A stretch of 64,000 bases of DNA from Chlorobium sp. (GTDB lineage: Bacteria > Bacteroidota > Chlorobiia > Chlorobiales > Chlorobiaceae), in NCBI GenBank assembly GCA_005862225.1, contig SZXV01000002.1, positions 682,001 to 746,000 of the forward strand. The letters run 5' to 3'. Made by a program: the position numbers and the translations under genes. The notes beneath the pieces were generated by a model. The model did no database searches. It saw only the letters and a program-made list of their open reading frames with translations, and was not told where the DNA came from. This document shows positions 10,564 to 22,448 of this stretch, one piece after another (position 1 is the stretch's first letter; every line of letters begins with the position of its first letter).

Positions 10564-10751
10564 TTGAATATAAAAAAGCCAGTAAACAGCGTTTTTATGC
10601 CGATCAGTATAAGAAGCAGAAATATAATGAGATATAGGGGGTAAATTTTTATTTTATATGCGATTAACTGTTGATTGTATTGTTTGTGTTTTGCGTCTTA
10701 TATGGGTTGTAACTCAAAAATACGCCGTTTAGAAGGATCAATCTAATTATT

Positions 10752-10758
10752 GTTATGT
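10752..10758 (+). other. Core site GTTATGT at left edge of cassette array
   Basis: The heptamer GTTATGT is identical to the right-hand core of attC A (11406-11412). It lies 34 bases before the first cassette gene, where a cassette junction is expected. No complete attC or attI is visible upstream, so this may be the remaining half of a lost site or a secondary insertion point. The bases between rfbC and this point (10564-10751) hold no gene that I can see. Confidence 0.45.
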
Positions 10759-10791
10759 GTTGCAAAACAACCCAGAAAGGCCGTTTAACCA

Positions 10792-11325
10792 ATGGAAAAG
10801 AAAATAGCTGAGTACGAGGCTACGCAAGCTTCTTATCTGCACTACGATAGCTTTAGATGGCAGGCAGGTTCATTGCTCATCGCAGGAGTTTTTGTTTTCT
10901 GGGGTCTGTTGATTAGCACGTCTCCACCCACAACGCCAAAAATTGTGGGGCTGGCCGGCATACTTGTTTCGCTCCTAATGACCATATGGGTGTTGTTCGC
11001 CCACCATTATCGGCAAATCTACCTATGTAAGCTCCACCGTATGCATGAATTGGAGAAGGATCTTTCTTTTGAACAACACCGTAGATTTATTCATGGCGGC
11101 GTCGAGGGGCGGCAGTACAGAGTATTCGGACCAAAAGGGCATAATCTGGATTTAGCCATCTATATTTGCTCATCCTTTGGAGGTTCTTTCGTGGGTTGGA
11201 TGCAATCAGGTTTTGATTTGTGGCTTATCTCACCTTTACCGCTAGTCACACTTGTAACCCTATATGTGCTAGTAAATGAGCATCGAATCACCAGTTTTTT
11301 GAAGAATTGGAATACAAACACATAA
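10792..11325 (+). CDS. Cassette-encoded membrane protein, unknown function
   Basis: A 177-residue product with two hydrophobic segments near residues 27-42 and 50-70 and a further one or two near the C-terminus (about 120-160). The N-terminal helix is soluble and there is a central cytoplasmic-looking region of about 50 residues with many charged residues. The stop codon (11323-11325) lies inside the left arm of attC A, the classic layout for an integron cassette. I do not recognise the family. It is the first gene of the array. Confidence 0.65.
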   Translation: MEKKIAEYEATQASYLHYDSFRWQAGSLLIAGVFVFWGLLISTSPPTTPKIVGLAGILVSLLMTIWVLFAHHYRQIYLCKLHRMHELEKDLSFEQHRRFIHGGVEGRQYRVFGPKGHNLDLAIYICSSFGGSFVGWMQSGFDLWLISPLPLVTLVTLYVLVNEHRITSFLKNWNTNT

Positions 11326-11412
11326 CATTGCGCTCAACCGGAGCGCGGCTATTTGGCGCTTTGTTAATTTTCAGGCTTTCCAGGGCCGCGCCAGGTTAGC
11401 TTTACGTTATGT
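11320..11412 (+). other. attC site A (cassette recombination site)
   Basis: The outer boxes ACATAAC (11320-11326) and GTTATGT (11406-11412) are perfect reverse complements. Inside them GCTCAACCGG pairs with CCAGGTTAGC, leaving one extra unpaired base, as attC sites require for strand choice. A mismatched spacer separates outer and inner boxes. The 93-base length fits, and the site begins at the stop of the preceding gene. Confidence 0.85.
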
Positions 11413-11418
11413 CATTCA

Positions 11419-11616
11419 CTAGCAGCCTGTCGGACTTAATGAAAAAAGTTAAACTATTTTACGATAAAGTATAAAGATAGTGTATATGATATATTATAAT
11501 ATTGATCTGAGCGTCATACTACAGTAGCGATAAAACTTTTTCATGGAAATCAAACTCAAATCGCCTTTTTTACGCTATTAATCTGCAAACATATTCAAAG
11601 TCCGACAGGCTGCTAG
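11419..11616. mobile_element. MITE-like element with 19-bp terminal inverted repeats
   Basis: CTAGCAGCCTGTCGGACTT at 11419-11437 is repeated as its exact reverse complement at 11598-11616. A second inverted pair lies just inside: ATGAAAAAAGTT on the left and AACTTTTTCAT on the right. The interior is very AT-rich and has no open reading frame. At 198 bases with perfect termini it looks like a non-autonomous transposable element. The outermost CTAG on each side could be a duplicated target, as seen with IS5-type elements; that assignment is a guess. It sits between attC A and the next cassette gene and could supply or disrupt that gene's promoter. Confidence 0.75.
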
Positions 11617-11627
11617 GAGTAGGCGCA

Positions 11628-12458
11628 ATGAGTAGTACAAAGGAATGGTTGTTTGACCAAATCGAAGCCAAGAGGAGCAAGCGGTTAGCTGATCTACTCG
11701 GCATCACCGATGACGAGCTTGAACAGATCAGCTACGAAATCGACGTCGATCAGAGCGATGATGGGTTGGTGTATGGCCGCATTGTGCGGTTCGATGGCGA
11801 CAACGACCCAGCAATAATGTCAAAGATTGTTGGTCTTAATTCTGGCTCATATGTGAGCTTGTCGCCATGGGATCTAGATGACCCTGAAGAGGATGAGCTT
11901 GAGTGGGAGGTTGAGAACTCCGAGCAGCTTAAAACGCTCAACAAGCATTTATCCAAAGTACCGCAACTCCTCCAAGTCGACGTAGATGAGAATATTCAAT
12001 TCAGTCTTCTTGTCATGATGCACGTCCATATTGTTTCCGTTCTTGAACAATTCCTGTCTGCAACATTCATACACAACGTAACTAACTCGGATGTCCTGAC
12101 GAGAAAGCTAATAGAAACAGACCCTGAGTTTGGATGTCGTAAATTCACTATGAACGAGATCTACGCTCAGTATAGCAATATCAAGTCGACAGTAGCCGCG
12201 TATCTGAAGGATATAATTTTTCACGACATGCGTAAGGTAAAGCCAATGTATGCAGATGTACTCGGTTATGATTTTGGAGATATTGCATGGCTATTCAAGG
12301 CAGTGTGTCTAAGGCATGATTGTGCTCACAGGGCAGGATATGATAAGGAAGGCAATCAAGTTTCAGTGTCGGTGGCGAGCGTCAATGAGCTGGTTGCACA
12401 ATGCCGGCATTTGTCTGAGAGCATAGATGCGCATGTTCAGAAAATTAACAACCAATGA
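11628..12458 (+). CDS. Cassette-encoded HEPN-like protein
   Basis: A 276-residue product. The C-terminal half is helical and carries RHDCAH (R229, H234), the R-x4-H motif of catalytic HEPN ribonucleases, followed by RAGYDKEGN, as in HEPN domains of toxin and defence proteins. The N-terminal 110 residues are acidic (several Asp/Glu runs near residues 80-95) and not recognised. The start has only a modest ribosome site (GGAGTAGG). The stop TGA at 12456-12458 touches attC B. I infer an RNase-type toxin or defence function from the motif and context only. Confidence 0.65.
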   Translation: MSSTKEWLFDQIEAKRSKRLADLLGITDDELEQISYEIDVDQSDDGLVYGRIVRFDGDNDPAIMSKIVGLNSGSYVSLSPWDLDDPEEDELEWEVENSEQLKTLNKHLSKVPQLLQVDVDENIQFSLLVMMHVHIVSVLEQFLSATFIHNVTNSDVLTRKLIETDPEFGCRKFTMNEIYAQYSNIKSTVAAYLKDIIFHDMRKVKPMYADVLGYDFGDIAWLFKAVCLRHDCAHRAGYDKEGNQVSVSVASVNELVAQCRHLSESIDAHVQKINNQ

Positions 12459-12523
12459 CATAACCTTTCGCTCAACACGGACGCGCATAAAAGCGGCGCG
12501 CGCCGGTTAGCTTTACGTTAGCC
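12458..12523 (+). other. attC site B
   Basis: The outer boxes are ACATAAC (12458-12464) and GTTAGCC (12517-12523). The inner arm CGCTCAACACGG faces CCGGTTAGCTTTAC, nearly the same right arm as attC A (GGTTAGCTTTACGTTA). The centre is a GC-rich hairpin. The site starts on the stop codon of the HEPN cassette gene. Length 66 bases. Confidence 0.88.
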
Positions 12524-12537
12524 ATTACGGAGATTCA

Positions 12538-13383
12538 ATGCCACCACAGTCAAAACCATCTCGTGCCGGATTGCCGCTTCTGATTATCGTCTTCTCAGTG
12601 ACACTACCATTGCTGTTCTTCTTCGGATGGGCAGTCGGAAGGCAGAACGTACCTGGTGTATCAATATCCCCTGATTCCATTTCTTCGTGGGTTTCGGCAT
12701 TGGCGACAGTGGCGATCGCTGTGTTGACGTTCATCTTGGCCAAAGAAACTTGGTATTTGCGCGAGACGCAAACCCAACAACTTGCAGAACTGAAGCGAGA
12801 AAATATCCGACCAAACGTCAACGTCCAACTCGATCCAAGTCGCGTCGGCCTGAACTTCGTTGATGTGAAGGTCAGCAACCTCGGAAAAGGAATTGCACGA
12901 AAAGTCGTTGTCGAATTTCTTGATCGACAAGGCGCACGCGTTGCGGAGGGGGTTGACCCCGTTGTCGAGAAATTTCGGAAGCTAGCAATATTCCGCCAGG
13001 GTATCGAGTCCATGGGGATTGGTCAAGTCATTACCAGCTTCGTCTTCAGTTTCATCGATTTAAACGACGAGCTGAAAGGTGAGATCTTCAAGCCTTTGTT
13101 GCAAATGGTCGTGCGATTCGAAGACATAGAAGGGAATCAGTACAAGAACGAATTTGTTGTCGACTTTGCTCAGTACCAAGGAATTAGTGAGTTAGGCGGT
13201 GGTGACCCACTGCACTTGATGTCAGAGGAGCTGAAAAAGCTCTGCGGAGTTATGGAGAAGGTAGCCCGCTCAGACAATCGGATTGGAGTTAACGTCTATG
13301 ACACAGAAGACAGAGAGGCGGAGCTTGCGGCTACTCGCAAGTATTTGTCCGAACAAAAGCGAATTGCGCAGGGTAATGGCTAA
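12538..13383 (+). CDS. Cassette-encoded membrane-anchored protein, unknown function
   Basis: A 281-residue product with two hydrophobic segments, at about residues 12-34 and 45-65, then a short coiled-coil-like stretch (WYLRETQTQQLAELKREN). A soluble domain of about 180 residues is rich in beta strands (VNVQLDPS, VDVKVSNLGKGIARKVVVEF). The pattern of two N-terminal helices plus a beta domain is common in small uncharacterised accessory proteins. The stop lies inside attC C. Base composition is closer to 50 percent GC than in later cassettes. No family name can be supported. Confidence 0.7.
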   Translation: MPPQSKPSRAGLPLLIIVFSVTLPLLFFFGWAVGRQNVPGVSISPDSISSWVSALATVAIAVLTFILAKETWYLRETQTQQLAELKRENIRPNVNVQLDPSRVGLNFVDVKVSNLGKGIARKVVVEFLDRQGARVAEGVDPVVEKFRKLAIFRQGIESMGIGQVITSFVFSFIDLNDELKGEIFKPLLQMVVRFEDIEGNQYKNEFVVDFAQYQGISELGGGDPLHLMSEELKKLCGVMEKVARSDNRIGVNVYDTEDREAELAATRKYLSEQKRIAQGNG

Positions 13384-13446
13384 CCAGCCGCTCAAGCCGA
13401 ATCGCGTTGGCATGCCAACGCTCGCGGCTCAGCTTCAACGTTAGAT
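13378..13446 (+). other. attC site C
   Basis: GGCTAAC (13378-13384) and GTTAGAT (13440-13446) are the outer boxes. Between them CCGCTCAAGCCG faces CGGCTCAGCTTCAAC, with a central palindrome GTTGGCATGCCAAC. This is the most textbook-like attC of the array (69 bases), resembling the classic 59-base elements. The gene before it stops inside the left arm. Confidence 0.92.
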
Positions 13447-13476
13447 TTAGAAAAACGGATAACGAGACATTGAATC

Positions 13477-15117
13477 ATGGCTTATCGTGAAATGTGGGAA
13501 ATGGAAGTGCGTCATGATGGCTTAAACAAATATCGCCATATTCGGGGTTCTGATAGATATGTTGTAGAGCAAAAAGCTGCCGCTCAGAAACTTGCATGGG
13601 ATGAGATGTGGGAAAAGAAGCAAGTTACAAGAAGCAAAGAAGAGAAATACGAATTGGCTGTTATCAAAACAGACGAAGCCCAAAAAGCACTCGAAGGTTT
13701 GGAGTTAACTCTTAAACACACGTTATCGGTAGATGATGCAATTGATTGGTCATCACTTTTAGATATTAAGCCGTTTCCAAAAAGAAAGCCGTCCCAGCCA
13801 ACTCAAGAAACCATCCCTGCTGAGCCAACAAAATCTGAGTCAAAATATCAGCCAGATATTGGACTTTTCGACAAAATATTCTCAAGTTCAAGGATAAGAA
13901 AACAAGACGAAGCAGAAAACCTGTATTTGAAAGATCATCAAGCATGGAGCGAAGGAAAAAAGAAAATAGAATCCATGAATGCAGATCAAGTATCAAAATA
14001 CACTATGGACTTAGAAATATGGGAAAAGGAAAAGAACAAGTATGAGGAGAACCAAAGGTCAAGGAATGGATTAATACAAAAAAAGAAGGATCAGTACTTT
14101 AACAAGGAGTCAGGCGCAGTCTCTGACTACTGCGAAATGGTGCTAAACAATTCAGTTTATCCTGAATATTTTCCCCAAGAATGGGATCTTGATTATCAAC
14201 CTGAGTCAAAGATACTGATTATTGACTACTCTCTGCCAGATATAGACTCTATTCCAACAACAAGAAGCGTTAAATATGTTGTCTCTAGGGATGAATTTAT
14301 TGAAACCCACTTATCATCTGCGGCATTGAACAAGCTCTATGATGATCTGTTATATCAAATTGCCCTCAGAACTATACACGAATTATATGAGGCTGATGTT
14401 ATTGAAGCACTTGACTCAATTGTTTTTAATGGCTGGGTAGACACTGTAGACAAAGCAACAGGGAATAATGTCAACTCGTGCATAATGTCTTTACAGGCTT
14501 CAAAAAATGAGTTTCTATCCATCAATCTTGAGAAAGTTGATCAAAAAGCATGTTTCAAACAGCTAAAAGGTGTTGGTAGTAGTAAGCTACATGGCTTGTC
14601 ACCCGTTGCGCCACTTATAAGTATTAACAAAGAAGACAGACGCTTCATATCTGCCTATGCTGTTGCAGATGAAATTGGCAGCTCCGACAATCTTGCTGCG
14701 ATGGATTGGCAGGATTTCGAAAATCTAATAAGAGAGATATTCGAAAAAGAGTTTGTTAGTTCTGGCGGCGAAGTAAAAATAACTCAGGCTAGTAGAGACG
14801 GTGGCGTGGACGCTATAGCTTTCGATCCAGATCCTATACGTGGCGGAAAAATCGTTATTCAGGCTAAGAGGTACACAAATGTGGTAGGTGTATCTGCGGT
14901 TAGGGACTTATACGGGACAACTTTAAACGAAGGAGCAACTAAAGGAATACTCGTTACTACTGCTGATTATGGTCCAGACGCCTATGAGTTCGCTAAAGGA
15001 AAACCGCTCACATTGTTGAACGGAAGCAATTTGTTGCACTTACTGGAAAAGCATGGGCATAGGGCGAAAATCGATTTGAAGGAAGCAAAGCAAATATTGA
15101 GCGAGAAAAAAATTTAA
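13477..15117 (+). CDS. Cassette-encoded Mrr-type restriction endonuclease-like protein
   Basis: A 546-residue protein. The C-terminal domain (about 405-535) is a PD-(D/E)XK nuclease of the Mrr_cat type. It has DWQDFENLIREIFEKE, then DGGVDAIAF (D441-D445) and IVIQAKR with the Q462-x-K464 catalytic pair, then a GILVTTADYGPDAYEFA strand-helix typical of Mrr. The N-terminal 250 residues are charged and partly coiled coil (about residues 130-215), and the middle is not recognised. Mrr enzymes cut modified DNA, so a role against foreign DNA is likely. The gene is AT-rich. The stop overlaps the degenerate site attC D. Confidence 0.82.
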   Translation: MAYREMWEMEVRHDGLNKYRHIRGSDRYVVEQKAAAQKLAWDEMWEKKQVTRSKEEKYELAVIKTDEAQKALEGLELTLKHTLSVDDAIDWSSLLDIKPFPKRKPSQPTQETIPAEPTKSESKYQPDIGLFDKIFSSSRIRKQDEAENLYLKDHQAWSEGKKKIESMNADQVSKYTMDLEIWEKEKNKYEENQRSRNGLIQKKKDQYFNKESGAVSDYCEMVLNNSVYPEYFPQEWDLDYQPESKILIIDYSLPDIDSIPTTRSVKYVVSRDEFIETHLSSAALNKLYDDLLYQIALRTIHELYEADVIEALDSIVFNGWVDTVDKATGNNVNSCIMSLQASKNEFLSINLEKVDQKACFKQLKGVGSSKLHGLSPVAPLISINKEDRRFISAYAVADEIGSSDNLAAMDWQDFENLIREIFEKEFVSSGGEVKITQASRDGGVDAIAFDPDPIRGGKIVIQAKRYTNVVGVSAVRDLYGTTLNEGATKGILVTTADYGPDAYEFAKGKPLTLLNGSNLLHLLEKHGHRAKIDLKEAKQILSEKKI

Positions 15118-15190
15118 CGCTTCACATTCACATGGACATCAAAAAGCACCGCTGGTTCTTCTCCCTATGCGGTGATGTGATGCGTTCGCA
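15112..15190 (+). other. Degenerate attC-like site D
   Basis: ATTTAAC (15112-15118) begins at the stop of the Mrr-like gene. The arms AACGC-T-TCACATTCAC and GTGATGTGA-T-GCGTT pair with one mismatch and one extra T. An inner CACCGC/GCGGTG pair extends the fold. The right outer box (GTTCGCA) fits the consensus poorly and the spacer is too short, so this could instead be a plain hairpin. Confidence 0.45.
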
Positions 15191-15200
15191 ATCGTGAACA

Positions 15201-15572
15201 ATGACCTATTTAAAAGAAATAATGGAATTATTGGGTGTGAGTGAAACTGATGCCATTAAGGCAATACTCAATCTTGTTTCACCTTTCCCTCCACATGCTA
15301 CTATACAAAACTGGACAAGGCTTTCAACCTTTGGACATGATGCTCCGACAACCAAAGATTTATGGAAAAAACTGGAGGGGTCAGATTTTCGTTGCCATAG
15401 ATGTGGAAGCCAAATGAGACTTTCTTTTAACAATATGAACAGCAACCCAAAAGCTCATCGGCTTGAGAACTTGGAAGTTATCTGTTTTTCATGTAATCGT
15501 TCTGTGTCAAAGAAAGGAAACAAAGACAACCATCATCATTATAAGTTAGCAATGGCTGCAATAGAACTTTAG
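15201..15572 (+). CDS. Cassette-encoded HNH-like zinc finger protein
   Basis: A 123-residue protein with two CxxC pairs: CHRCGSQM near residue 68 and CFSCNRS near 97. The stretch LENLEVICFSCN followed by KKG resembles the end of an HNH nuclease finger (normally NLxxLCxxCNxxKG). The histidine-rich start of the HNH motif is not clearly present; the segment before reads MNSNPKAHRLENL. It may be a small HNH endonuclease or a zinc ribbon that lost activity. The next gene is 116 bases downstream with no attC between, so the two may share a cassette. That gap holds a small 6-bp hairpin (ATGTAG/CTACAT). Confidence 0.6.
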   Translation: MTYLKEIMELLGVSETDAIKAILNLVSPFPPHATIQNWTRLSTFGHDAPTTKDLWKKLEGSDFRCHRCGSQMRLSFNNMNSNPKAHRLENLEVICFSCNRSVSKKGNKDNHHHYKLAMAAIEL

Positions 15573-15688
15573 AAAGAAAATGATATATACCCAGCCCTTT
15601 CAGAAATTCAAATTCGTGCAAAAGTAGAACATGTAGGCGGGGCTACATATTTACTTAAATATATAAAAAATCGATTATTGAAAAAACT

Positions 15689-16516
15689 ATGACAAAGCTA
15701 AAATTCCCAAGCAAACAACTTGAAAATATAAATATTAAAATCAGGACTGAATCTCTCAGGTCTCTAATTGAGTTGATCAAAGCCGGAATAGATTATAAGA
15801 AAAAAGAATCGCTTCAAATAATTGATAAACTAAATAATAAAATCGAAGATGAGTCTGATTTACACGAAGTAACAACTAAAGAAGCAATTTTTGAATTAGA
15901 ATATGTCAATTATTTTGAAGGGCCATTTATATGTTCTCAGTTAGAGAATGTGGCCGCATATTCAATTATTCCAGCATGTTATATGATTTTTGAGACAAAT
16001 TTAGTTGCGTTCGCTGAAATTGCAAGAAGGCATTTTTATATTGAGTTAAAGTGGAATGAATTATTTGGTGGGAAAACAGACAAAATTAACACGTATTTAT
16101 CAAAGTTTGCTCACATTGATGTATCAAATATTCAATCGTGGCCACCACTAAAAGAACTCGAGATTATCAGAAATTGCATTATTCACAATGAAGGTAAAGT
16201 AAATGAGGAGTTTAGAGATCATTCGAAAATCGAAAATATTATTAAAAAATATCCGAATCATATTTCTGTAAACAAGCCGCTGCATGAAAATGAAAAATAT
16301 ATAATTGTTAAATTGAGCTTATGTGGCCTTTTTCTCGAGAAATTAAATTCCTTTTTTGATGAGCTTATTGCCCTATTTGGGTTTGACCAGAATTTTTACT
16401 TTGGAGCAGAAGCTTCGCGGCGGATTCTGAATGAAAGAATTCAAGCCAAAAAAGAATTTGACTGTTCAGTGGGAAAAGCAAAAGAAATATACTTTAACAG
16501 GATGAAATCACTATAA
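15689..16516 (+). CDS. Cassette-encoded HEPN-like protein
   Basis: A 275-residue, mostly helical, AT-rich gene product. The segment LKELEIIRNCIIHNEGKV contains R161-N-x3-H166, the RNxxxH form of the HEPN ribonuclease motif seen in MAE_28990/RiboL-PSP-like and Abi-type proteins. The flanking helices include ETNLVAFAEIARRHF before it and LCGLFLEKLNSFFDELI after it, a common HEPN layout. attC E begins 5 bases after the stop. The function is inferred as an RNase-type toxin or abortive infection protein. Confidence 0.65.
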   Translation: MTKLKFPSKQLENINIKIRTESLRSLIELIKAGIDYKKKESLQIIDKLNNKIEDESDLHEVTTKEAIFELEYVNYFEGPFICSQLENVAAYSIIPACYMIFETNLVAFAEIARRHFYIELKWNELFGGKTDKINTYLSKFAHIDVSNIQSWPPLKELEIIRNCIIHNEGKVNEEFRDHSKIENIIKKYPNHISVNKPLHENEKYIIVKLSLCGLFLEKLNSFFDELIALFGFDQNFYFGAEASRRILNERIQAKKEFDCSVGKAKEIYFNRMKSL

Positions 16517-16520
16517 AAAA

Positions 16521-16608
16521 TGCTAACAATCGGGTAAACTTGATCGCCGAAAGCTGCGTTCTTCGAGCGTAGTTTAGTGGCGGCGGCAGGTTACCCTTGG
16601 CGTTAGGC
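16521..16608 (+). other. attC site E
   Basis: TGCTAAC (16521-16527) and GTTAGGC (16602-16608) are the outer boxes, with one mismatch when paired. The inner arm CGGGTAAACTTG pairs with CAGGTTACCC, leaving one extra A. The centre of about 50 bases can fold. The position just after the stop of the second HEPN gene fits a cassette boundary. Length 88 bases. Confidence 0.8.
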
Positions 16609-16667
16609 GATAACAGATGAACAATGTAGAATCAACTAATTTCCCGCAATTTTAGGTATATCACCTT

Positions 16668-18311
16668 ATGCAACAATCTGAAGATATTAAAGTTGTCAAC
16701 GCTTTCATAAATGAGTGGATTATTAGTGCTAACGTAAAATCGGTTCTCCATATCAAAGCATCAACATTCAATCTGTTTTCCAATCTCTTTGATATAGAAA
16801 CCCAAGAAGTTAAAGCGGCTGAGTTTATACCAACAAATGCCCACTACGATTTAATTCTTGGTGATATTCCTTTGGCTATGGGTCAAGACACTTGGAATAA
16901 TGGCGTAAAGCTTATTAAGGCTCAACACAACTGGCTCGAAATTTTACAATCTTTACTATCACTTGAAGAAAATGGGTCTGCCATATTTGTATTAGAACCT
17001 CGAGGATTTGGTTTTGCTCGAGGAATTGCATTTGAGAAAGAGCTTAATGAGCATGGTTTTTTTGTGAATGCCTATGTTAATTGCCCTGAAAGAATACTTT
17101 TGCCAGAAACAGTAATAACGCCTGTTTTGGCGGTTTTATCAAAAAAGAAAGTAAAACAATTATTTGTAGCCGAGCTATTAGACGAATATCAAGCATCACA
17201 AGTAGTTCGTAACTATTTTTCAAATACCGATAATGGCAATTTAGCAAGCGGTAAATATATAAATGCAGGCGACTATTACGGATTTCACCGAATCAAAGCA
17301 AAAGAGAGAATTGAATGTTTAGAATCTCAATATAAAACTTACAAAGAATATTGTCTGGGGGATTTGGTTGTTCAAAAAGACAATGAAAAACAGATTAACC
17401 GTGTGGCAACAGGTGAACAATTTCAAGAAACTGAAAATGCTGTTTATATTCCTACCATAGGAAACTCACCCGTTATTTCTAAATTGGAAGATGCTAAATT
17501 AAAACATCAAAATTATTTTCAGGTTGTACTTGGCGATTTGGCAATTAATGACTATGTCGCATCATTCTTTAATTCTACTCTGGGTAAATTAATAATTGAT
17601 TCCTTAACATCAGGTTCTTTTATTCCTCATCTTAATAAAAGAGACATAGAACAAGCCCTTGTTGCACTTCCAGGTCTGGATGAACAAAAACACATAGTAC
17701 AAACTCATCATAAACTTCATGAATTGAAAGTTGCCATTAATACGTTTGATGCAGAACTGGCTATTAATCCAACCAGTTCAAATGCAATATTAGGACAGTT
17801 GGATATGATGCTTGAGGCTATCGGTGCATTGACCGATGCAGATAAAGTTCGGGGGCTTGTGCGTGAAGGTGAATCAAAGTATCTCGAGTTTAAAGAGACA
17901 CTTAGTTTGGATGTCAAAAAACAGACCAAAGAAAAATATATTGAAGATTCAGCATTAAAAACAGTCGTTGCCTTTCTAAATACTGATGGTGGAAAACTGT
18001 TAATCGGTGTTTCAGATACTGGAGCAATACTCGGCTTAAATGTAGAAATTGATAAATTTGACAAGAGCCTGGATAAGTTTCTTTTGCGTTGGAAAAATTT
18101 TGTAAAAAACAGGGTTGGAGAAGCGTTTTATCCATTTATTGAGTACAAAGTTATTAATGTGGACGACAAGTATATACTTCTTGTCGAATGCGAACGTTCT
18201 CCGCGTCCGTGCTATTTGGATACAAATGATTTTTATGTAAGAACTAATCCAGCAACTGACAAGCTTGAAGGTCCAAAATTGGTTGAATATGTACAAAACC
18301 ATTTTAAATGA
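16668..18311 (+). CDS. Cassette-encoded degenerate DNA methylase-like / AlbA_2 fusion
   Basis: A 547-residue protein with an unusual layout. Residues 1-180 resemble the fold of N6-adenine methylases of type I systems, but the catalytic (N/D)PPY/F tetrad is replaced by GDIP (65-68, in DLILGDIPLAMG), so base methylation is doubtful. Residues 200-370 resemble the target-recognition part of HsdS/methylases (SGSFIPHLNKRDIEQALVALPGLDEQ). Residues 397-520 are an AlbA_2 (Schlafen-like) domain: EGESKYLEFKETL and AFLNTDGGKLLIGVSDTGAILGL. AlbA_2 domains occur in defence and regulator proteins. The gene is AT-rich and lies between attC E and F. Defence is inferred, not shown. Confidence 0.78.
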   Translation: MQQSEDIKVVNAFINEWIISANVKSVLHIKASTFNLFSNLFDIETQEVKAAEFIPTNAHYDLILGDIPLAMGQDTWNNGVKLIKAQHNWLEILQSLLSLEENGSAIFVLEPRGFGFARGIAFEKELNEHGFFVNAYVNCPERILLPETVITPVLAVLSKKKVKQLFVAELLDEYQASQVVRNYFSNTDNGNLASGKYINAGDYYGFHRIKAKERIECLESQYKTYKEYCLGDLVVQKDNEKQINRVATGEQFQETENAVYIPTIGNSPVISKLEDAKLKHQNYFQVVLGDLAINDYVASFFNSTLGKLIIDSLTSGSFIPHLNKRDIEQALVALPGLDEQKHIVQTHHKLHELKVAINTFDAELAINPTSSNAILGQLDMMLEAIGALTDADKVRGLVREGESKYLEFKETLSLDVKKQTKEKYIEDSALKTVVAFLNTDGGKLLIGVSDTGAILGLNVEIDKFDKSLDKFLLRWKNFVKNRVGEAFYPFIEYKVINVDDKYILLVECERSPRPCYLDTNDFYVRTNPATDKLEGPKLVEYVQNHFK

Positions 18312-18358
18312 GAGTCCGATAGATACTTATAATAACTGGGGTCAGATTAAAGTTAAAT

Positions 18359-18419
18359 GCCTAACTCAACGTTCCAGCGGAGCTTCGCTACGCTACGCCC
18401 GTTAGCTTTGTCGTTAGGC
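18359..18419 (+). other. attC site F
   Basis: GCCTAAC (18359-18365) and GTTAGGC (18413-18419) are perfect reverse complements that match the consensus exactly. The inner right arm is CGTTAGCTTTGTC and the centre is a GC-rich hairpin. Its left arm is nearly repeated at the array end (site G). Length 61 bases. Confidence 0.92.
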
Positions 18420-18439
18420 TTCACAATGGAAATAGCGAG

Positions 18440-18733
18440 ATGATTACGAGAATATTCAGAGTAAGAGTTCCAGCATCACTACATGCTGAGTTCGAATCAA
18501 AGTTTAAATCCGTATCAGTGCCGTATGTGAAATCGGCAAAGGGCTTGCTTTCAGTCATAGTCGGTCGACCAACATGTTGGGAACCAGAAGAGTATGTAAT
18601 GATTTCCACATGGCAAAGTGAATCTGATATTGTAGTCTTTGCAGGTGAAAGCTGGAACAAGGCTGTAATTCCGCATGGCATGGAAAAGTACGTTTCTGAG
18701 TGTTGGGTTCACCACTATGAAGATTTCAATTAA
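18440..18733 (+). CDS. Cassette-encoded ABM-like small protein
   Basis: A 97-residue protein whose strand-helix pattern resembles the antibiotic biosynthesis monooxygenase (dimeric alpha-beta barrel) family: ITRIFRVRVPASLHAEFES, then SAKGLLSVIVGRPTCWEPEEYVMISTWQSESD. The ending VSECWVHHYEDF also fits. The substrate is unknown. Such small barrels are common cassette cargo. The gene starts 20 bases after attC F, and a half attC follows it. Confidence 0.6.
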   Translation: MITRIFRVRVPASLHAEFESKFKSVSVPYVKSAKGLLSVIVGRPTCWEPEEYVMISTWQSESDIVVFAGESWNKAVIPHGMEKYVSECWVHHYEDFN

Positions 18734-18747
18734 ATTGTGGCAGGCGG

Positions 18748-18772
18748 GCCTAACCCAACGTTCTCAGTGAGC
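18748..18772 (+). other. Truncated attC site G (left half only)
   Basis: GCCTAACCCAACGTTC copies the left arm of attC F (GCCTAACTCAACGTTC) except one base. No matching right arm or GTTAGGC core follows before the hsdR fragment. This marks the broken right edge of the cassette array. Confidence 0.7.
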
Positions 18773-18840
18773 TATCAAACTTATGGTGTTGCTGTTGCTT
18801 ATGGGAATTATTTTTGAAAAGCATTTCACGGGGCATTTCC

Positions 18841-19138
18841 ATGACGAATGAATACGCGATCGAGCTTGGTCTTATCGATAAATTGGAAGATCTCAAATAC
18901 AAGTATCGGGAAGATATTCGTGACCGTGCCGCTCTGGAAAAGAACTTTCGTGAGAAGTTTGATGCGCTTAATCGGGTGCATTTGACGGATGCGGAGTTTG
19001 CCCGGTTGCTGGATCTGATTGTTACTCCAGATGTTTTTGTGGCTGCACGGCATCTGCGCGAGCGGAATAGCTTTGATCGGGATGATGGTACGCCATTGTT
19101 TTATACGTTGCTGAATATTAAGGAGTGGTGTAAAAATA
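18841..19138 (+). pseudogene. hsdR fragment, N-terminal ~100 codons of type I restriction subunit
   Basis: The ATG at 18841 opens a segment that reads like the N-terminal region of HsdR, the motor/nuclease subunit of type I restriction enzymes: NEYAIELGLIDKLEDLKYKY, REDIRDRAALEKNFREKF, NRVHLTDAEFARLL and a segment ending NIKEWCKN. A full HsdR has about 1000 residues; nuclease and helicase domains are absent. After WCKN the frame runs on for about 15 unrelated codons to a stop at 19185, while another frame picks up zeta-toxin sequence. The open frame reaches back to 18814. It cannot restrict DNA. A decayed hsdM follows at 20.9 kb. Confidence 0.85.
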
Positions 19139-19546
19139 ATCAATGCCGATCTCATTGCAGCCGGACTCTCACCCTTTGCCCCTGATGTGGCTGCCATCAA
19201 AGCAGGACGCGTCATGTTGGAAGAGATTGCCGCTTGTGTGCGACGTGAAGAAAGCTTCGCTTATGAAACCACGCTATCCGGCCTTGGTTATCTGACGCAT
19301 ATCCAGCAATGGCGCGCTCAAGGTTTTTGGGTGAGCCTCCATTTTCTGGCGTTACCCGATGTCGAAACGGCCATTGCCCGTGTAGCGGAGCGCGTTCGCC
19401 AAGGAGGGCATAATATTCCTGAACCAGTAATCCGCCGCCGTTTTATAGCGGGATTGCGTAACTTTGAGCAACACTACAAAGCCGAGGTAGATGCTTGGGC
19501 TAAATACAACAACACTGGCAAGATACCGGTGTTATTAGAATGGTGA
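19139..19546 (+). pseudogene. Zeta-toxin-family ATPase/kinase, 5'-truncated
   Basis: From about 19139 the frame reads INADLIAAGLSPFAP, then a KAGRVMLEEIAACVRREESF stretch, AYETTLSGLGY, and later AERVRQGGHNIPEPVIRRRF with a C-terminal LRNFEQHYK. This is the zeta-toxin/AAA-type kinase family, whose members start with a Walker A loop (GxNGAGKT type). That loop and about 35 upstream residues are missing because the hsdR fragment is joined in their place. An internal ATG at 19187 could begin a 119-residue product, but without the P-loop it should be inactive. The stop overlaps the start of the following small gene by 7 bases, keeping the toxin-partner layout. Confidence 0.8.
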
Positions 19547-19782
19547 GAAAACCTGTGAACGCAAAAGATATTTCCACGGCTAAAAACCCAGACCTTCGTG
19601 GTTCATTAGCCGCTCTGCAACGAGCCGCAGCATTGGCCCGTGAAACCGCTATTCAGACGAATACCAATATCGTGATTGAGAAAGATGGAAAATTGGTGTG
19701 GATTTCAGCGAAGGAACTGCGCCGCCAGGCATCAGAGGTAAAAGAATCTATAAATCCCCAGCCTTCCGACCTGGTATTGTGA
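19540..19782 (+). CDS. Small partner (antitoxin-like) of the truncated zeta-type gene
   Basis: An 80-residue protein: MVRKPVNAKDISTAKNPDL, then a helix with LAALQRAAALARETAIQTNT and a strand pair (IVIEKDGKLVWISAKELRRQ). Short proteins of this type commonly sit directly after zeta-family kinases and probably act as their antitoxin. It is intact, although the upstream toxin has lost its N-terminus. The start overlaps the toxin stop, implying translational coupling. The antitoxin role is an inference from position. Confidence 0.65.
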   Translation: MVRKPVNAKDISTAKNPDLRGSLAALQRAAALARETAIQTNTNIVIEKDGKLVWISAKELRRQASEVKESINPQPSDLVL

Positions 19783-19869
19783 TTCATTGCAGGATACCCC
19801 TGAGTTCCTATATTAACAGAAAACAGTGGACTCATTGAAATTCAGTTCATTTCGAAAAGGCACGACACT

Positions 19870-20736
19870 ATGCTTTTAAAAGATCGTTACATAAACCCCT
19901 TTACCGACTTTGGTTTCAAGAAAATCTTTGGCTCCGAGGTAAACAAAGAGCTGCTGATAGCGTTTTTGAATACGCTCTTGCCAGCAGAGGCGGGTATAGT
20001 TTCCGACCTTTCATTTTTGCGCAATGAGCAGGTTGGGCGGAGTGAATACGACCGCAGGGCAATTTTTGACCTATATTGTGAAAATGAAAAGGGTGAAAAA
20101 TTCATCGTAGAGATGCAGCGGGCAAAGCAGAACTACTTCAAAGACCGATCAATTTTTTATGCCACATTTCCTGTTCAACAGCAGGCACAGAGCGGATCGT
20201 GGAATTTCTGCCTGAAGGCAGTCTATCTGGTCGGTATTCTTGATTTCGTGTTTGATGAAGATAAAGCTGATAATGAGGTCGTTCACCATGAAGTAAAGCT
20301 GGTTGATCGTTCAACGGGGGCAGTTTTCTCCGACAAGCTCACCTTTATTTACCTCGAACTTCCCAAGTTCACGAAAACGATTGATGAGCTTGTTACTGAC
20401 TTCGACAAATGGTGTTTCCTTCTTCGCCATCTCCCTGAGCTGACTGACCGACCGGCTTCTCTTCAGGAAAGGGTCTTCCTCAAAGTATTTGAACTGGCAG
20501 AAATCGCAAAGTATTCGAGTGTGGAAGCGGCAGCTTATGAAGAGAGCCTCAAGGTCTATCGAGACCTGAAGAATGTTGTCGATACCGCTTATGATGAGGG
20601 CAAGGCAGAGGGAAGAGCTGAGGGCAGCCAGCAAAAGGCCAGGGAAGTTGCAAAAAGCCTTAAAGAGTCAGGGTTAGATATAGAAACGATTTCACGTTGT
20701 ACTGGTCTGCCGGTTACTGTTGTGGAAGGGCTATAG
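19870..20736 (+). CDS. Rpn-family PD-(D/E)XK nuclease/transposase-like protein
   Basis: A 288-residue member of the Rpn/PDDEXK family (PF12784-like, often annotated as putative transposase). The N-terminus MLLKDRYINPFTDFGFKKIFG is diagnostic. The nuclease core shows DRRAIFDLYCENEKGEKFIVEMQRAKQ: the FD aspartate, then E-x-Q of the catalytic core. The C-terminus has an Ala/Glu/Gly-rich linker (EGKAEGRAEGSQQKA) and a helical tail. These proteins promote RecA-independent recombination in E. coli and occur in many copies in green sulfur bacteria and cyanobacteria. It lies between the toxin remnant and the hsdM remnant. Confidence 0.85.
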   Translation: MLLKDRYINPFTDFGFKKIFGSEVNKELLIAFLNTLLPAEAGIVSDLSFLRNEQVGRSEYDRRAIFDLYCENEKGEKFIVEMQRAKQNYFKDRSIFYATFPVQQQAQSGSWNFCLKAVYLVGILDFVFDEDKADNEVVHHEVKLVDRSTGAVFSDKLTFIYLELPKFTKTIDELVTDFDKWCFLLRHLPELTDRPASLQERVFLKVFELAEIAKYSSVEAAAYEESLKVYRDLKNVVDTAYDEGKAEGRAEGSQQKAREVAKSLKESGLDIETISRCTGLPVTVVEGL

Positions 20737-20878
20737 TCAGGGTTTGCGATCCCCACTTGGACAGATCAGTGATACGTTCACTTGCCCCTTTTTAAATCCC
20801 GGTGGTGAGAGAGCATGAAGCAAGATGAAAGCGTCGAAGAGATCAGCCGAAAAACAATGGCGCACACAAAAATCAGTC

Positions 20879-21240
20879 ATGACCGAACAAACCCAGAAAC
20901 CAATGGGTACTACCCTCTGGGGCATTGCCGGTCAATTGAGAAAGGAAAACGCCAGAACCGGTTGCGGGAGGATGATATCGAGAAGATCGTTGATACCTAT
21001 CAATTCCGCTGTGAGGAGTTACGTTACTCTCGACGTGTAACGATGGAGGAGATTGAAACTAACGGCTACAATCTGAATATCTCCCGCTATATCAGTACCG
21101 CTCAACACGAGGCAGAAGTTGACCTGCAAGCTGTTCATGGTGAGCTGGTTGAGATTGAACAGAAAATTGTTGCAGCCACCAGGAAGCATAATGAGTTTTT
21201 AAGGGAGCCTGGGTTACCGTTTTTGCCGATGGGTAAATAG
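20879..21240 (+). pseudogene. hsdM remnant with large internal deletion
   Basis: At 20879 a frame reads MTEQTQKPMGTTLWGIAGQLR, the usual N-terminus of the HsdM methylase of type I systems. Within about 60 bases similarity switches to a different frame: KGKRQNRLREDDIEKIVDTY, then RRVTMEEIETNGYNLNISRY and a tail with LQAVHGELVEIEQKIV and FLREPGLPFLP, the usual HsdM C-terminus. The SAM-binding and NPPF catalytic core of roughly 380 residues is gone. The junction is near 20938-20945. No hsdS is left. An open frame from 20815 covers the C-terminal part, but its first 40 residues are not HsdM-like. Confidence 0.85.
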
Positions 21241-21572
21241 GGGGCGGAGACGTGATGGATATAATGGCTGGAAAAACCGATACCGTCATCAGGTGACGGT
21301 AAAACAACCTTCAGACAAACCCGAAAGAGCCGGGCCACTTCCCGACTCTCTGTGTTGTCAGTGCATGGTGATTTTGCCCCCTACTCTCTCTCTCTTTTTC
21401 ATTATCTTCTGTAACTTTTCGGAATATTCCTTAAGTATACGGAAGGTTCAAAAAAGGGAAATACTGAGCAATTGGCGAAGTTTTGGTAAAGTTTTGTCTG
21501 ATTTTGATGCGTTTTGTTTTTGGTATGGTATATAAAAATAATCAGATATAGGGTTCTCTTGAAAAAAATCGC
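21241..21572. other. Gene-free stretch between hsdM remnant and rfbD
   Basis: No coding sequence is supported here. It holds a perfect 8-bp hairpin TACCGTCA/TGACGGTA (21281-21301) without a T run, a short TC repeat (21384-21395), and an AT-rich end. A possible weak promoter for rfbD is TTGATG at 21504 with TATATA at 21529, though the 19-base spacing is long. Since rfbD no longer follows rfbC, some local promoter is expected. Confidence 0.4.
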
Positions 21573-22448
21573 ATGAAGATTCTTGTTACAGGCAGCCGGG
21601 GTCAGCTTGGCTCGGAGTTGCTGGTGCTGTCGGCCAGTTGCCCTCACCATAATTTTTTTTTCTATGATCTCCCTGACCTTGATATTACAGTGCAAGAGCG
21701 GGTTGAAGCTCTCTGTACGAACTATAACATAGACGTTATCGTCAATTGTGCGGCATATACGGCTGTGGACAAGGCTGAAATCGATTCGGCAACAGCATAC
21801 AAGGTGAACAGTGACGGACCAGCGGTTCTTGCCGCCTGTGCCAGAGATCGACATGCTCTTCTGCTTCATGTCTCGACTGACTATGTTTTTGATGGAACTT
21901 CCAATATTCCTTATCGTGAAACTGATCCGGTTGCGCCGCTGGGTGTGTATGGTCGTTCGAAGTGGGAAGGTGAGGAGCGTATTCGCGCCATTGCTCCTTC
22001 ATACATGATTTTCAGAACATCCTGGCTTTACTCTGTCTTCGGCGTTAATTTTGTGAAAACCATGTTGCGTCTTGGTGCAGATCGGCCCGAGCTGAGTGTT
22101 GTGGTTGACCAGATTGGAACGCCGACCTGGGCGGCAGATCTTGCTGCTGTGCTGGTGTCAATTATCGACAGGCATGATCGGGATTTTTCTTATGGGGAAA
22201 CCTTTCATTATTCAAATGAAGGGGTTGCCTCATGGTACGATTTTGCACAATCAGTTATGGAACTGGCAGGAGTTTCGTGTCAAATTACACCTGTCGAAAG
22301 TGCGCAGTATCCCCAGATTGCATCCCGCCCATTGTATAGTGTCTTGAATAAGTCAGCCATAAAAAAAGATTGGGGGATCAACATTCCATACTGGCGCGAC
22401 TCACTGAAGGCCATGTTGCAGCAATTGGGGGCTGAAAAGGTAGCTTGA
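21573..22448 (+). CDS. rfbD: dTDP-4-dehydrorhamnose reductase
   Basis: RfbD/RmlD reduces dTDP-4-keto-rhamnose to dTDP-L-rhamnose with NAD(P)H. The 291-residue protein opens with MKILVTGSRGQLGSEL (cofactor glycine motif) and has VNCAAYTAVDKAE near residue 56, STDYVFDG near 103 and the YGRSKWEGE catalytic Tyr-Lys near 126-130. It is in the same orientation as rfbA/rfbC but separated from them by 11 kb of accessory DNA. rfbB follows after 120 bases. Confidence 0.96.
   Translation: MKILVTGSRGQLGSELLVLSASCPHHNFFFYDLPDLDITVQERVEALCTNYNIDVIVNCAAYTAVDKAEIDSATAYKVNSDGPAVLAACARDRHALLLHVSTDYVFDGTSNIPYRETDPVAPLGVYGRSKWEGEERIRAIAPSYMIFRTSWLYSVFGVNFVKTMLRLGADRPELSVVVDQIGTPTWAADLAAVLVSIIDRHDRDFSYGETFHYSNEGVASWYDFAQSVMELAGVSCQITPVESAQYPQIASRPLYSVLNKSAIKKDWGINIPYWRDSLKAMLQQLGAEKVA

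Follow-up and report, generated by a model that had tools for sequence, protein, structure and literature searches.

The rml operon of a Chlorobium sp. carries an integrase-less integron, consisting of one intact-looking attI site and seven cassettes in a single direction, as part of an 11-kb insertion. An earlier note on this DNA had called an integrase-less integron cassette array in a green sulfur bacterium, and this call is supported by our covariance model of attC sites (R1), the register of the recombination boxes, a search for intI, and the presence of FmoA in the genome. The single orientation given there stands, but the attI at the head of the array and its dispersal in the genome and family had been overlooked. 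Judged from sequence comparisons, the array was probably built by an IntI that was not necessarily encoded in cis, with dispersed attI sites served in trans. New here are the attI at the array head and a family-wide pattern of apparently dispersed, exchangeable attI sites.

An attI-headed cassette array in the rml operon

The insertion lies in the window, the 64-kb stretch of DNA analyzed (C4:682001-746000). In the nearest relative, G056 (rmlC 96%), and in several other relatives, rmlC directly adjoins rmlD, representing the empty site, and the window matches locus L208 up to position 10571 and again from 21574. The ends of the insertion share at most a 7-bp near-repeat (TGAATAT/TGAAGAT), attI is only a few bases from the left end, and restriction-modification remnants occupy the right part together with an Rpn-like gene. 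The features are as follows.

10575-21573, +: 11.0-kb insertion between rmlC and rmlD, in rml operon direction, with attI, cassettes, and right-hand remnants
10576-10755, +: attI region, by homology to other attI copies and to the stretch after intI in relatives
10735-10755, +: attI core GGATCAATCTAATTATTGTTA, with crossover expected between 10752 and 10753
10753-11406, +: cassette 1, 177-aa membrane protein with a weak 8xMP match just below the cut-off (Pfam)
11320-11412, +: attC1, R1 30.9 bits, E 7.4e-4; DNA fold z -3.0
11407-12517, +: cassette 2, 276-aa protein, family unassigned; R''/R' 7/7; holds the MITE-like element
11419-11617, no strand: MITE-like element with 19-bp perfect terminal inverted repeats, just after attC1, inside cassette 2
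12458-12523, +: attC2, R1 40.1 bits, E 1.4e-5
12518-13440, +: cassette 3, 281-aa protein, family unassigned, hydrophobic N terminus; R''/R' 7/7
13378-13446, +: attC3, R1 40.0 bits, E 1.4e-5; fold z -2.2
13441-15184, +: cassette 4, 546-aa Mrr-type (type IV) restriction endonuclease; Mrr_cat 9.2e-31, PADLOC mREase_IV 1.8e-58
15112-15190, +: attC4, degenerate, L''/L' 7/7 in canonical geometry, R boxes 6/7; fold z -2.35
15185-16602, +: cassette 5, 123-aa HNH-like ORF and 275-aa ORF with a weak HEPN-like match; R''/R' 6/7
16521-16608, +: attC5, R1 40.3 bits, E 1.3e-5
16603-18413, +: cassette 6, 547-aa protein with a Schlafen/AlbA_2 domain and a type I specificity-like part; R''/R' 7/7
18359-18419, +: attC6, R1 37.5 bits, E 4.2e-5
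18414-18763, +: cassette 7, 97-aa ABM-domain monooxygenase, with a truncated attC7
R'' at 18748, cut off at about 18763, +: attC7, truncated, by box pairing
18814-21240, +: right part of the insertion, with an HsdR N-terminus fragment, ORFs, an Rpn-like protein, and an N6-methylase C-terminal fragment
19870-20736, +: Rpn-like PD-(D/E)XK protein in the right part

R1 is our own attC model rather than that of IntegronFinder, and was trained on 25 attC sites, six of them class 1 sites from integrons carried by two plasmids and the remaining 19 from other Chlorobiaceae, with none from the genome under study. Its stem covariation was far above shuffled controls. Across the 64-kb window, R1 returned five attC matches, all on the + strand (E 1.3e-5 to 7.4e-4), followed by a sixth-best match at 13.7 bits and an E value of 1.3. 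The earlier note had staked its reading on attC sites at 11320, 12458, 13378, 16521, and 18359 and on at least three same-orientation matches to an attC model; the five R1 matches, all in one orientation, are these five sites. Hand-made attC patterns were dropped in favor of the covariance model because they matched shuffled sequence too often. Folding z-scores were strong for only some attC sites and were not used as support.

Because integron crossover cuts R' after its G, each cassette must begin with the reverse complement of its own R''. When the seven R'' boxes were compared with the seven preceding junctions, 47 of 49 positions were complementary, and 4 of 5,040 permutations do as well. 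The first junction in this register is the end of attI, where the R'' of cassette 1 (ACATAAC) is a full reverse complement (7/7) of the attI junction (GTTATGT). Based on this rule and on box pairing, attC4 and attC7 were added to the five sites of the earlier list, from which they were missing; attC4 falls below the R1 threshold and was not picked up by the model. The interval proposed earlier for the array, 10752-18775, proves to start at the attI crossover and to end just past the truncated last attC.

The attI of the window is 70 to 75% identical over ~175 bp to the C10 sequence that separates a 3' intI fragment from the first cassette, and to other copies. Eight relatives with full intI have the same core ~170 bp downstream of the end of that gene, with core, intI, and cassettes all on one strand. 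Homology among attI copies begins at the position of the intI stop codon, and the window attI has no intI before it. No sigma-70-like site (Pc) was found on the + strand of the attI region, in a scan that did not extend to promoters of this bacterial group. All ORFs kept in the insertion are oriented like the rml operon, and terminator-like sites show no excess over shuffled sequence, so operon read-through is possible and is likely to be how the array is expressed.

Several cargo genes resemble phage-defense genes, namely, the Mrr-type IV endonuclease of cassette 4 and the Schlafen/AlbA protein of cassette 6 (SLFN_AlbA_2, 2.8e-21, Pfam). A 73% homologue of the Mrr gene precedes an attC in a Labilibaculum array. 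The proteins of cassettes 2 and 3 had no match in Pfam. Cassette 7 recurs in another species (G081) at 97% identity, behind a different attC, with homology running from the crossover into attC7, which is complete in G081. The MITE-like element in cassette 2 has relatives with the same ends in G083 (82%) and G079 (72%); a search of the Chlorobium sp. genome for a second copy found none, and it was rejected as an explanation for the array.

Integrase remnants and dispersed attI copies

The Chlorobium sp. genome (2.5 Mb, 13 contigs, 99.96% complete) encodes FmoA, which is absent from 14 controls, in line with a green sulfur bacterium. This gene (C9:61185-62236) is read in two overlapping frames, suggesting a frameshift or sequence error. 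As stated in the earlier note, no intact intI is present in the window, and the wider search that it proposed found none above the TIGR02249 cut-off in the whole genome. The sole remnant is a 66-codon 3' fragment of intI on C10 (L009, 3467-3730); this contig starts inside its array, and hidden sequence may exist in that gap. Two other TIGR02249 matches were rejected as IntI: one on C11 is a tyrosine recombinase of 495 aa that lacks the integron-specific stretch, and one on C5 is a fragment of a C11-type tyrosine recombinase. Between G000 and G082, the C10 intI fragment shows 9 synonymous and 0 nonsynonymous differences, and between G000 and G085 it shows 8 synonymous and 2 nonsynonymous differences (orthologues L058 and L059), while the flanking non-coding DNA differs by 5%. 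This bias could reflect selection on the fragment or gene conversion from an intact intI.

Seven attI copies are present in the Chlorobium sp. genome. Across the family, the attI core pattern was found in 51 of 86 genomes, with up to nine matches each, compared to one match for the reversed control, and full intI was found in 15 genomes. Outside the family (about 154 genomes), there were three single core matches with two mismatches, near the control level. A set of 62 copies, found via the attI search itself and so not counting loci that have lost attI, included 8 with full-length intI, 16 with shortened 3' intI, 8 behind radC-like sequence, and 30 with neither. An attC with an R'' fitting the copy's own junction followed in 17 of the 62, compared to 0 to 4 in swapped-junction controls.

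Many copies lose homology near the intI stop, and copies occur behind unrelated genes, such as umuC, radC, and clpC (these neighbor names, and serB below, are readings of translations rather than results of a family search). Clean empty sites for the clpC-attI copies were sought in relatives, which were too diverged for one to be established. The spread of attI could reflect repeated integron acquisition with intI decay, or movement of attI alone, each of which fits parts of the data. Copies behind a radC-like gene or an apparent umuC end include L081, L205, L189, L192, L184, and L170, and those just behind a radC-like gene have a common ~200-bp block before attI. On C11 (82744-89730; L079 and L080), three attI in the same orientation lie within 7 kb, with single genes or short arrays between them.

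Cassette exchange without intI in cis, and its explanations

Orthologous attI loci without intI in cis differ in the cassettes behind them. For example, at the serB locus (G000, G085, and G082), the same intI truncation is shared and flank plus attI are 94 to 96% identical, while the first cassettes are unrelated from the crossover on. For the umuC locus, the upstream sequence is 99% identical between G062 and G084 but the downstream sequence is unrelated; between G085 and G084, identity is 89% upstream and 99% downstream. The radC locus follows the same pattern in three species, with a conserved flank and cassettes that change at the crossover. Cassettes are also shared between loci: G052 and G062 carry one cassette, identical at 188 of 188 nt from the crossover, at unrelated attI loci, and a ~430-bp cassette of the umuC locus recurs at loci of G068 and G079 (92 to 94%). 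Most relatives are fragmented assemblies, where sequences wrongly joined at the short conserved core could look like a cassette switch; several of the switches lie inside contigs of 30 to 200 kb, and the G062 contig ends 188 nt past its switch.

Exact cassette switches at loci without intI in cis call for an integrase acting in trans. An intact intI is encoded elsewhere in the genomes of G084, G053, G079, G068, and G052. None was found in the Chlorobium sp. genome, G078, G085, G082, or G062, some of which are incomplete assemblies, and these genomes thus show no candidate for the trans enzyme. We infer IntI-mediated recombination at these sites from the exchange of cassettes among species, and for the window locus, which has no orthologue, service in trans would follow the example of the other attI loci. 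Chlorobiaceae carry many dispersed attI, most without intI in cis. An IntI produced from another locus of the genome, or one that enters transiently, would insert and excise cassettes at these sites, recombining the folded single strand of attC with double-stranded attI at G|TT. The array in the rml operon would have gained its cassettes one by one at attI, through an IntI possibly encoded elsewhere. We lean slightly toward a distributed integron, in which one trans-acting IntI serves many chromosomal attI, each with a short array behind different host genes. Because intI is now broken in the Chlorobium sp. genome, the array is expected to stay fixed unless an integrase is acquired.

Ordinary decay would need no trans-acting IntI: a complete integron would have built the array in cis, intI would have been deleted up to its stop, and the remnant would have entered the rml operon with an island. 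Such a history agrees with the graded series of intI fragments seen at 16 of the 62 attI copies, the loss of homology near the intI stop in many copies, and the restriction-modification remnants forming the insertion's right part. However, cassettes have been exchanged at attI loci that had already lacked cis intI before the species split, and only a few bases separate the window attI from the left end of the insertion; decay is an unlikely explanation. It is very improbable that the dispersed element is a MITE-like mobile repeat that integrons use, rather than copies of an integron attI. Inner inverted repeats can be read in the attI region, and copies do lie behind genes as unrelated as umuC, radC, and clpC, but graded 3' fragments of intI remain attached to attI, cassettes start exactly at its end, and the core pattern hardly occurs outside the family. 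The ease with which loose hand-made patterns match shuffled sequence could raise a suspicion of chance palindromes and no integron, an idea of negligible probability that is refuted by the model E-values, the single orientation, the box register, the attI, and the exact ends of cassette 7 in G081.

Relation to known integrons

The accepted picture of an integron is a single integrase with a single attI next to it. In the Treponema/Chlorobium type of chromosomal integron, intI is transcribed toward attI, the C. phaeobacteroides intI groups with those of Treponema, and each integron has only one attI (PMC3607928). The Chlorobiaceae relatives resemble this type in having attI directly downstream of intI and cassettes in the same direction; the window locus differs in lacking intI in cis, and attI is multiplied. 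The co-directional arrangement of intI, attI, and cassettes is found in relatives and at the C10 fragment. At the array in the rml operon, attI is at the head, based on homology and junction register, and instead of an intact intI in cis the genome has only the 66-codon fragment, on C10.

Delta-attI gene cassettes of mobile integrons, in which a partial attI replaces attC inside arrays, likewise place attI outside its usual single position beside intI, and are functional in recombination (PMC12901181). The ~175-bp attI copies of Chlorobiaceae differ in heading separate chromosomal arrays. Elements with several attC and no integrase are termed CALINs by IntegronFinder and are proposed there to be degraded integrons (PMC9024848). 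With at least two attC by covariance model (five, in one orientation, by our own) and no nearby integrase, the Chlorobium sp. locus qualifies as a CALIN, but its array is headed by an attI that recurs in the genome and family with cassette turnover.

IntegronFinder restricts its attI search to class 1 (PMC9024848). Because common software ignores such sites, dispersed-attI systems would be listed as CALINs. In a search of open-licence papers, which is weak as evidence of absence, no description of dispersed attI in Chlorobiaceae was found. If attI is dispersed and served in trans, cassette capture would extend beyond one locus, many host genes could have new genes placed behind them, and it would be wrong to count every integrase-less array as dead.

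Other arrays were also observed in the data set. In G056, a separate contig (C265; L304, L306, and L307) carries an array of its own, with four or more attC. In the Chlorobium sp. genome, C10 and C13 both begin inside cassette arrays (attC at C10:1272, -, and C13:858, +), with orientations that would allow the two contigs to be joined.
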